From positions 1 through 49,489 of the forward strand of contig JAGBES010000017.1 in assembly GCA_017936845.1 (NCBI GenBank): a stretch of DNA of 49,489 nucleotides, given 5' to 3'. Positions 47,088 to 49,489 of the stretch are shown in pieces. Both the position numbers and the translations under genes were made by a program. Source of the stretch: Bacilli bacterium (GTDB taxonomy: Bacteria; Bacillota_I; Bacilli_A; RF39; UBA660). The number at the start of each line of letters is the position of its first letter. Positions within the stretch are counted from its first letter, which is position 1. The notes beneath the pieces were generated by a model. The model was given only the letters and a program-made list of their open reading frames with translations, ran no database searches and was not told the DNA's origin.

Positions 47088-47118
47088 AAAAATATCTTTA
47101 TTTTGAAGATATTTTTTT
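47086..47118. terminator. Bidirectional terminator between the Fem gene and fibre gene 1
   Basis: A perfect 13-bp stem (47086-47098 with 47106-47118), with A runs and T runs on both flanks, at the meeting of two convergent genes. Confidence 0.8.
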
Positions 47119-48313
47119 ATCCTATTCTTTTATACATATAAACAGTTATATATGGATCTAATACACTAAATGATGTATTACTTCCTGTTGAATCTGTATT
47201 ACTTGCTGTTCCTGTAAATGTACTTGTTACTGTTCCTTTTGCTGTTACTGAATGGTAATGTGATGCAACTCCACTTATGCTATTTGCATAATAATCATTA
47301 TAACTATGTGCATGGTTAACACTTATACCACTTGTTGTTCCACTATACGTATGATAATGTCTACCACCATCAACTGTTGCTAATGCATATGGCGCTGTTG
47401 CTGTTCCTCTTCCTATTCCTTGATTAGGAGCACCGGCAGCTTCTCTTAAATATGAAAGACCATACTGAACATTATAATTAACTTCTGAACTTGTTGTTCC
47501 ACTAAAATTATGCGTATGATTAGCTGATTCAGCCGCTGTTGCTCTTGCTGAATAACCATAACCTATGCTATATCCACTTCCTGTTGAACCACTATTAACT
47601 GCTGTTCCTGTAAATGTACTTGTAATTGTTCCAGCTGGTGTATATGAATGTGAATGTGATGGTAAGTTTGCTGTTGTTAAAGATACATTACTATTTCCTC
47701 CTGTTTGATTTGCTTCTCCTGTTGTTCCTCTTAATACTCTATCTATTCCATAAGCTTCCCATTTTCCACCTAATGCTTCTTTTACTTCTTCAGCTGTTTT
47801 TAAATTTGTTGATATATATATACTTCCTACTGGATATATCTTATTTAATGCACTTTCTGTTCCTATTCCTTTATTATTCATATCTTTTATTGTATTTTTT
47901 AATTCTTCATTTGATGTTGTTAATTCTTGATTTAATTTTTTTAATTCACTAACTTCACTACTTAATTTTTGAATTGCTGTTAATATATCATTTGTTCCTA
48001 TATCATTACTTGATGAATCTAATAAATAATATGAAAAAGCATCTTTTATACTCAACAAATTTATCATTTTATTACTTCTTATTTTTTTTCTGCAATGTTT
48101 ATCATCTAATGCTTTAATTGTGACATCTTCTTTACATTCTACCATTAAATTTTCATTATATGTAATTGATATTTCTTCTACTGCAAACATCTTATTTTTG
48201 AAAGAATTTAGTATATCATTATTTCTTATTTTATATATCAATAATGGTGTAATTAATACTATTGTTGATAATGCTACTATTGTTACTAGTAATGTAAATT
48301 TACTTTTTTTCAT
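47117..48313 (-). CDS. Membrane-anchored phage-tail-tip-like fibre protein 1
   Basis: A 398-residue protein that joins a bacterial membrane anchor (about 7-27) to a phage-like tip. A small extracellular segment with two cysteines (CKEDVTI, HCRKK) is followed by a coiled coil (about 108-148, LSSEVSELKKLNQELTTS). Next comes a baseplate/tail-collar-type domain that starts YPVGSIYIS and GGKWEAYG. The last ~190 residues are rich in Gly, Ser and Thr and carry five HxH pairs (HSH, HTH, HYH, HAH, HYH). In phage fibre tips such pairs bind metal along a trimer axis. No phage genes surround it. A surface adhesin or filament is likely; this is an inference. Confidence 0.7.
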   Translation of the reverse strand: MKKSKFTLLVTIVALSTIVLITPLLIYKIRNNDILNSFKNKMFAVEEISITYNENLMVECKEDVTIKALDDKHCRKKIRSNKMINLLSIKDAFSYYLLDSSSNDIGTNDILTAIQKLSSEVSELKKLNQELTTSNEELKNTIKDMNNKGIGTESALNKIYPVGSIYISTNLKTAEEVKEALGGKWEAYGIDRVLRGTTGEANQTGGNSNVSLTTANLPSHSHSYTPAGTITSTFTGTAVNSGSTGSGYSIGYGYSARATAAESANHTHNFSGTTSSEVNYNVQYGLSYLREAAGAPNQGIGRGTATAPYALATVDGGRHYHTYSGTTSGISVNHAHSYNDYYANSISGVASHYHSVTAKGTVTSTFTGTASNTDSTGSNTSFSVLDPYITVYMYKRIG

Positions 48314-48477
48314 TTTTTATCCTACTTTCTAATATAAAAATTATATTATAAAACCATAGTTTTTTTTAGTTATATTTCTTGTATTTATTTCAAAACAATT
48401 AAAATCATTTATCTATATTTCATATACAAGTCATATTATTAAAAATTTCAATATTTTTTAATAATTTATTTAAACTT

Positions 48478-49489
48478 TTAATTTATTCTTTTATACATAT
48501 AAACAGTTATATATGGATCTAATACACTAAGTGATGTATTACTTCCTGATGTTTCTGTATTGCTTTCAGTTCCTGTAAATGTACTTGCTACTGTTCCTTT
48601 TGCTGTTACTGAATGGTAATGTGATGCAACTCCACTTATGCTATTTGCATAATAATCATTATAACTATGTGCGTGATTAACACTTATACCACTTGTTGTC
48701 CCACTATACGTATGATAATGTCTACCACCATCAACTGTTGCTACTGCATATGGCGCTGTTGCTGTTCCTCTTCCTATTCCTTGTCCAGAAGAATCCTCTC
48801 TTAAATATGTAAGACCATATTGAACATTATAATTAACTTCTGAACTTGTTGTTCCACTAAAATTATGCGTATGATTAGCTGATTGAACAGCTGTTGTTCT
48901 TGTCGAATAACCATAACCTATGCTATATCCACTTCCTGTTGAACCACTATTAACTGCTGTTCCTTTAAATGTACTTGAAACAGTTCCAGCAGGTGTATAT
49001 GAATGTGAATGTAACGGTAAGTTTGCTGTTGTTAAAGATACATTACTATTTCCTCCTGTTTGATTTGCTTCTCCTGTTGTTCCTCTTAACACTCTATCTG
49101 TTCCATAACTTTCCCATTCTCCACCTAAATTTTCTTTTACTTCTTCAGCTGTTTTTAAATTTGTTGATATATATATACTTCCTACTGGATATATTTTATT
49201 TAATGCATTTTCTGTTCCTATTTCATTATTATTCATATCTTTTATTGCATTTTTTAATTCTACATTTGATGTTGTTAATTCTTGATTTAATTTTTTTAAT
49301 TCACTAACTTCACTACTTAATTTTTGAGTTTCTATTAGTATATCAGTAGTTCCTATATCACTACTTGATGAATCTAATAAATAACATGCAAAATCATCCT
49401 TTATACTAAGCATATTTATTACTTCACTACTTGATAATTTTTGTCCACATAGTTTATCATCTAATGCTGTTATTGATATTTTTCCTTCA
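48478..49489 (-). CDS. Membrane-anchored phage-tail-tip-like fibre protein 2, start beyond window
   Basis: The frame is open to the right edge. The ATG at 49413 is internal, because codons before it (ALDDKLCGQKLSS, then SEVINMLSIKDDF) align with fibre protein 1 (ALDDKHCRKK, MINLLSIKDAF). The coiled coil, the YPVGSIYIS domain and all five HxH pairs are kept, with very high DNA identity over the last ~800 bases. Differences cluster at a loop near 48780-48800 (REDSSGQG against REAAGAPNQG) and in the coiled coil. The offset between copies is about 1361 bases, so this is a tandem duplication. The membrane anchor presumably lies just outside. Confidence 0.7.
   Translation of the reverse strand, partial: EGKISITALDDKLCGQKLSSSEVINMLSIKDDFACYLLDSSSSDIGTTDILIETQKLSSEVSELKKLNQELTTSNVELKNAIKDMNNNEIGTENALNKIYPVGSIYISTNLKTAEEVKENLGGEWESYGTDRVLRGTTGEANQTGGNSNVSLTTANLPLHSHSYTPAGTVSSTFKGTAVNSGSTGSGYSIGYGYSTRTTAVQSANHTHNFSGTTSSEVNYNVQYGLTYLREDSSGQGIGRGTATAPYAVATVDGGRHYHTYSGTTSGISVNHAHSYNDYYANSISGVASHYHSVTAKGTVASTFTGTESNTETSGSNTSLSVLDPYITVYMYKRIN

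Follow-up and report, generated by a model that had tools for sequence, protein, structure and literature searches.

Two phage-type tips at the end of a contig

The right-hand end of this DNA carries two adjoining open reading frames in which a phage-type tip follows a coiled coil, and the question that this locus raises is what kind of bacterial protein carries such tips. The window, that is, the whole stretch of 49,489 bases that was analyzed, is the complete contig C3 of a source genome of 1.12 Mb in 34 contigs. The features considered below are the following, with paralogs named after their contigs:

47117..48313, minus strand: ORF A, 398 aa, complete; degenerate prepilin-like N-terminus, coiled coil, and phage gp10/gp37-type tip
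48320..48329, minus strand: Shine-Dalgarno-like sequence GAAAGTAGGA of ORF A, likewise upstream of the C16, C27, and C7 paralogs
48143..48313, minus strand: ORF A residues 1–57, degenerate type IV pilin alpha-1 segment (MKKSKFTLLVTIVALSTIVLITP...)
47873..47995, minus strand: ORF A residues 107–147, predicted long helix, coiled-coil-compatible
47648..47842, minus strand: ORF A residues 158–222, conserved gp10-like base (KIYPVGSIYIST...GGxW...LPSHSH)
47249..47647, minus strand: ORF A residues 223–355, variable insert with HxH pairs 2–5 at residues 266, 319, 334, and 352
47600..47623, minus strand: TSTFTGTA, copy 1 in ORF A, residues 231–238
47120..47248, minus strand: ORF A residues 356–398, conserved return strand (GTVTSTFTGTA...SVLDPYITVYMYKRIG)
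47204..47227, minus strand: TSTFTGTA, copy 2 in ORF A, residues 363–370
48478..49488, minus strand: ORF B, 336 aa, 5′-open at the contig end; N-module remnant, coiled coil, and tip, with the pilin start outside the contig
48481..49197, minus strand: ORF B tip domain with five HxH pairs

ORF A is flanked leftward by FemAB-family, MurD, and enolase-like housekeeping genes, and no phage genes were found near ORFs A and B in the window, which ends at ORF B; this agrees with what had been stated when the DNA was read from its letters only (the sequence-only reading). The same reading assigned an anchor, a coiled coil, and a tip to each protein, which is correct for ORF A, while the anchor part of ORF B lies outside the contig. 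ORF B is the 3′ portion of a family member whose start is off-contig. The gene breaks at one common point in ORF B and in the paralog on C1, as is expected where an assembler fails to cross a repeat. Joining C3 with C4, at whose start an N-terminal piece of such a gene lies (C4:6-176), was considered and rejected, because no overlap exists between the contig ends and the gene is cut at that point in C1 too. The tips of ORF A and ORF B are 89–90% identical at the protein level.

Relationship of the tip to phage proteins

Each of the two tips contains exactly five HxH pairs, which consume all 10 tip histidines, while only ∼0.35 pairs are expected from 2000 sequences of shuffled composition, in which the maximum was four for ORF A and three for ORF B. 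The motif TSTFTGTA is present twice in ORF A, while the longest exact repeat among 2000 tip shuffles was 6; in ORF B the repeat is kept but diverged (STFKGTA and STFTGTE). Hence, the comparison with the shuffled sequences shows that the five pairs per protein and the internal repeat noted in the sequence-only reading are real and far from chance, the exact repeat being a property of ORF A.

The Pfam model Gp10_C (PF21939) matched ORF A with 54.9 bits and ORF B with 50.8 bits (cut-off 27), and both tips also matched PHROG tail families. A profile of relatives (A4) matched 2fkk, the crystallized C-terminal domain of T4 gp10, with an E value of 2e-20 over the conserved base as well as the last strand (YITVYMYKR); its E value for the long tail fiber 8kec was 5e-8 over the HxH part, and the tip-only profile A2 reached T4 gp37 at E 0.16. 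A family profile was needed for these matches, as the PDB search with ORF A alone returned coiled-coil noise and one weak tail fiber. The best phage relatives were tail fibers with 31–33% identity across 97% of the tip, and two weak relatives only were found in IMG/VR. The tail-collar model PF07484, which was also considered, had no match across the genome. The earlier description of a tail-collar-type domain was right about the phage tail tip, for which Gp10_C is the fitting model.

These profile matches identify the tip as a homolog of the T4 gp10 C-terminal domain, with a variable HxH insert resembling long tail fibers. Like gp10 (PF21939, 2fkk) and the gp37 needle (2xgf), the tip has base strands, a return strand, and HxH pairs in an insert, while it differs from them in being placed on a bacterial pilin without baseplate or tail genes, and in its identity of about 30% to phage tips. 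In gp37 the HxH pairs bind iron (PMC11705849). The single-chain AlphaFold model of ORF A had a poor tip (mean pLDDT 52; tip residues mostly below 50), and the model of a shorter relative (mean pLDDT 63) had gp10 at Foldseek rank 1 with TM-scores of only 0.22, which means that the structural support for the gp10 likeness is sequence-led. It is reasonable to suppose that the chain leaves a gp10-like collar, runs out along an HxH needle, and then returns, and such an out-and-back anatomy would explain why every paralog has a GTVTSTFTGTA-like stretch on either side of its variable part. The insert between residues 223 and 355 of ORF A, which is mosaic across paralogs, would then be the receptor-binding needle.

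The anchor of the intact paralogs is a prepilin N-terminus

The intact paralogs elsewhere in the genome start with MKRKGFTLIELLAVIVIL...; these copies, C16, C27, and C7, have a canonical prepilin start (e.g., MKRKGFTLIELLAVIVILSIIALIATPVLYKIINDAK; pattern M[KR][RK]KGFTL[IV]ELLAVIVIL) with the class III signal peptide, i.e., G or A at position −1, a hydrophobic alpha-1, and Glu5. Their N_methyl scores were 32–33 bits versus a cut-off of 21.2, and TIGR02532 was above cut-off in C16 and C7. In all three, Gp10_C is located within the same ORF as the prepilin start (48–52 bits; cut-off 27), which provides the family with the extra C-terminal module of modular pilins, a feature that is not specific to type IV pili (T4P). 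An intact member begins with a class III signal peptide and the alpha-1 helix of a pilin; behind these come a small N-module and a coiled coil, and the tip at its outer end has a gp10-type base that carries a gp37-like HxH insert.

The membrane anchor ascribed earlier to the window's proteins corresponds in ORF A to a hydrophobic N-terminal helix behind KK, but the identity of this part is that of the type IV prepilin N-terminus which is canonical in the intact paralogs. The N-terminus of ORF A (MKKSKFTLLVTIV) has Lys at position −1 and no Glu5, and its alignment to the intact copies reads MKKSKFTLLVTIVALSTIVLITPLLIYKI, with the cleavage-site Gly replaced by Lys. Consequently, the class III signal peptide is lost, and the one complete copy in the window does not itself qualify as a modular pilin; it also had no match to the N_methyl and TIGR02532 profiles. 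In comparison with C16 and C27, ∼45 pilin-module residues right after the alpha-1 segment are deleted in ORF A, while its pilin segment retains 73–76% DNA identity with the canonical paralogs. The dN/dS values of the pilin segment among C16, C27, and C4 were 0.03–0.06, which indicates strong purifying selection on the pilin parts of the family, while the value for ORF A versus C16, C27, or C4 was about 0.6. Most likely, ORF A descended from a pilin-borne form and its pilin signature was lost under relaxed constraint. It is a degenerate member, which probably can be neither cleaved nor polymerized, and could be either a decaying copy, a donor of tip sequence, or a membrane-held variant.

Scattered paralogs have mosaic tips

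Searches of the genome's contigs, from which the copy number was derived, found at least seven tip genes on six contigs, which are ORFs A and B on C3 and the copies on C16, C1, C27, C21, and C7. Hence, the tandem arrangement proposed earlier is right insofar as A and B adjoin, but the family extends beyond this pair to a total of at least seven loci, which are scattered over the genome. On C17 of the same genome (G000), a 234-aa Gp10_C protein without a pilin start precedes, in the same orientation, a 2013-aa protein that has YD/RHS-like repeats (L036:2295-9069).

Because the tip is truly a phage tail-fiber or baseplate domain, ORFs A and B could be tail-fiber genes of a prophage or tailocin at a prophage edge. 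The intact copies, however, have a prepilin N-terminus, the paralogs are scattered among housekeeping genes (e.g., mutL, trigger factor, M23 peptidase, and PPIC isomerase) rather than phage genes, and the IMG/VR relatives are as few and weak as described above, which makes this origin barely conceivable to us. A prophage tail operon was likewise rejected, as there were no adjacent structural or tail genes and the flanks were housekeeping on the readable sides of the copies, the ORF B side ending with the contig.

The ends of the tips are conserved between paralogs while the centers are variable, and the centers and the N-modules have different histories: C1 and C21 share 30% of the N-module and 82% of the variable tip center, while C16 and C27 share 97% and 46%, respectively. 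This discordance suggests recombination or gene conversion among the scattered copies. In C21 (L034:7900-8087, G000), a one-base deletion (GCAATACCATAATATT versus GCAATACCATTAATATT in C7) splits the prepilin start from the tip-bearing part.

ORF A may be a non-functional duplicate or a silent tip cassette, which feeds intact pilin genes by gene conversion, in the manner of silent pilin loci, but is not displayed; the same may be true of further broken copies, C21 for example. We give this explanation somewhat less than an even chance. The loss of Gly(−1), Glu5, and the ∼45 N-module residues from ORF A is consistent with it, and so are the contrast in N-terminal dN/dS, the near-identity of the A and B tips, and the split between pilin and tip in C21. 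On the other hand, ORF A is open across 398 codons and has a Shine-Dalgarno sequence and a start, the dN/dS of its tip versus that of ORF B is 0.55, and the exchange between donor and recipient was not seen directly. The silent cassette concerns the window copy, and it is compatible with a modular-pilin explanation of the family.

Pilus machinery and a modular-pilin explanation of the family

The genome has 30 N_methyl matches above cut-off, several of them in ORFs of 560–1170 aa in which few C-terminal domains, or none, are recognized. It also encodes an ATPase of the PilB/GspE type, a protein of the PilC/GspF type, and a prepilin peptidase (PilD), which together are the cognate assembly machinery expected with modular pilins. 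A second, separate ATPase locus, which is TadA-like, is located on C29. Given PilB, PilC, PilD, and the many prepilins, the tip proteins sit in a genome able to make type IV pili, although we know of no T4P filament of this organism.

Several long prepilins of the same genome (L182, L183, L184, L185, L186, and L187; 560–1164 aa) have similar pilin modules, and their C-terminal parts lack known domains or have DUF6273; they represent a wider modular-pilin expansion in this 1.1-Mb genome. The leader MLANSKI with a G run behind it is common to several prepilin genes, which are L189 (G000:C4:217-237), L192 (C29:90837), L194 (C27:228), L188 (C2:53447), L190 (C9:111075), and L191/L193 (C21:210, C32:8058). 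The lengths of the G runs, in this order, are 9, 9, 7, 11, GGGAGGGGGG, 5, and some of these genes contain the palindrome GGTTATTTAAATAACC. The leader is in frame with the pilin in the 11-G copy alone, and the others would need one base more or less, which looks like phase variation by slipping.

Because the anchor of the intact paralogs is a prepilin N-terminus, the natural reading of the family is that of modular pilins on type IV pili and not of a free-standing fiber. On balance we consider it probable that ORFs A and B belong to a lineage-expanded group of modular type IV (minor) pilins, which show phage-type receptor-binding tips for adhesion. The architecture, the copy number, the homology of both modules, the pilus machinery, the purifying selection on the pilin module, and the mosaic tips are established for the family. 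Hence, the domesticated phage tip proposed in the sequence-only reading holds insofar as a bacterial surface protein bears a phage-type tip and no prophage is involved, but the carrier is most likely a modular pilin rather than a free-standing surface fiber system.

In the proposed mechanism, the leader of an intact prepilin would be cleaved by PilD, and PilB and PilC would build the pilin into a type IV pilus, either within the filament or at its tip. A trimer could form via the coiled coil and the interwoven tip, with metal ions held by the HxH pairs, and the variable center may bind a ligand on the surface of partner cells, of mucus, or of other bacteria. The scattered copies would recombine in such a way that the variable center is swapped while the ends are kept.

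Tip carriers in other genomes

Among 288 genomes of the order, Gp10_C is present in 63. The search for proteins joining an anchor and a tip, which had been suggested earlier, found a canonical prepilin with a tip in G001 of the same genus and in G200, G283, and G298 of other genera. Other tip carriers were short signal-peptide proteins, phage-type or signal-less proteins, and TM anchors with an NVQDAID motif, of which one rabbit-gut Bacilli MAG has at least 10 copies. In a tree of the conserved tip ends, which is based on a short alignment, the tips of the source genome cluster together (100/90) inside a wider set of anchor-borne tips from Bacilli of the rabbit and cattle gut, and the pilin-borne tips are scattered over several positions, with about four separate pilin joinings as a minimum. 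The tip thus appears to be a module that was repeatedly joined to surface carriers.

The closest relatives of the tips, from rabbit- and cattle-gut Bacilli, are on signal-peptide or TM anchors, which suggests that pilus display is not required for tip function. ORF A itself could work as a membrane-anchored surface fiber, uncleaved and outside any pilus, and its hydrophobic helix behind KK, followed by a coiled coil and a tip, matches an arrangement that occurs in nature in these relatives. This explanation is doubtful in our view, as the anchor is a recognizable decayed pilin segment under relaxed constraint and the ORF A tip is nested within a pilin-borne clade.

Some tip genes occur in larger units. 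A very long surface protein that ends in a tip is the first member of such a unit in G001 (L037:4996-11640, C11), where it is a 1668-aa prepilin, and in G094 (L145:7619-15989, C12), where it is a 2229-aa signal-peptide protein. Behind it come two short genes for secreted tip-only proteins, and the neighboring genes are not those of a phage; similar pairs are present in G151 and G272. Within such a unit the three tips are nearest one another, and the long protein and the two tip-only proteins may possibly form a heterotrimer. In G125 (L139:7077-11296, C4) and G053 (L140:121-4001, C36), eight to nine tandem genes of ∼130 aa, which lack a signal peptide and comprise little beyond the Gp10_C tip, are nearly identical between the two genera.

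Spore coating and a phage decoy, both proposed in the sequence-only reading, found no specific support. The displayed tips of a decoy would block or titrate phage receptors, and the sole point in its favor is the resemblance of the tips to phage receptor-binding proteins; against it, a tip that recognized a receptor of the producing cell would make the cells adhere to each other as well, and we regard a role in defense as very unlikely.

Comparison with known systems

The modular pilins have been established as a class, for which PMC8179133 gives 264 architectures; the main text of this paper lists an architecture with S74 (IPR030392) and mentions no tail or collar module. The description of the locus as an undescribed system was thus too strong, although we found no published modular pilin with such a tip, and searches of open-access literature for prepilins or pilins with a tail fiber, phage tail, or tail collar turned up no account of this architecture. 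The PilB and PilC proteins of S. sanguinis are tested adhesins in the accounts of PMC8179133 and PMC9934059. As presented there, they are similar to the present family in the fusion of a class III signal peptide and a pilin module to a bulky C-terminal binding module, and in a monoderm host with T4P genes; they differ in that their binding modules are vWA or lectin, while here the tip is of the gp10/gp37 type, the coiled coil is long, and the tips are multi-copy and mosaic. The shufflon PilV minor pilins of IncI plasmids also have a variable C-terminal binding tip, which sets the recognition of other cells, but PilV varies by site-specific inversion (PMC9045228), while here scattered paralogs have mosaic tips. 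No recombinase or inverted cassettes for tip variation were identified here. We know of no phage gp10 base in CofB. As cited in PMC8179133 and PMC9045228, this trimeric T4bP minor pilin of ETEC is tip-exposed and has extra C-terminal domains, similar to the present family, which would likewise form trimers.

Of greater interest than the window's two copies is the family as a whole. It joins the tips of phage tails and the type IV pili of bacteria, two receptor-binding machines that have been considered apart. It is tempting to speculate about a recombining, partly phase-variable repertoire of phage-type tips on retractable pili, by which the cell would choose and hold partner cells, e.g., bacteria that an auxotroph needs, although we think that so elaborate a role is unlikely. 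If the tips bind cell surfaces, the recognition of targets would be phage-style, and the variable centers would be a readable code of ligand specificity. The family also opens a way to find out what it is that gut Bacilli with small genomes, which are poorly cultured, attach to.
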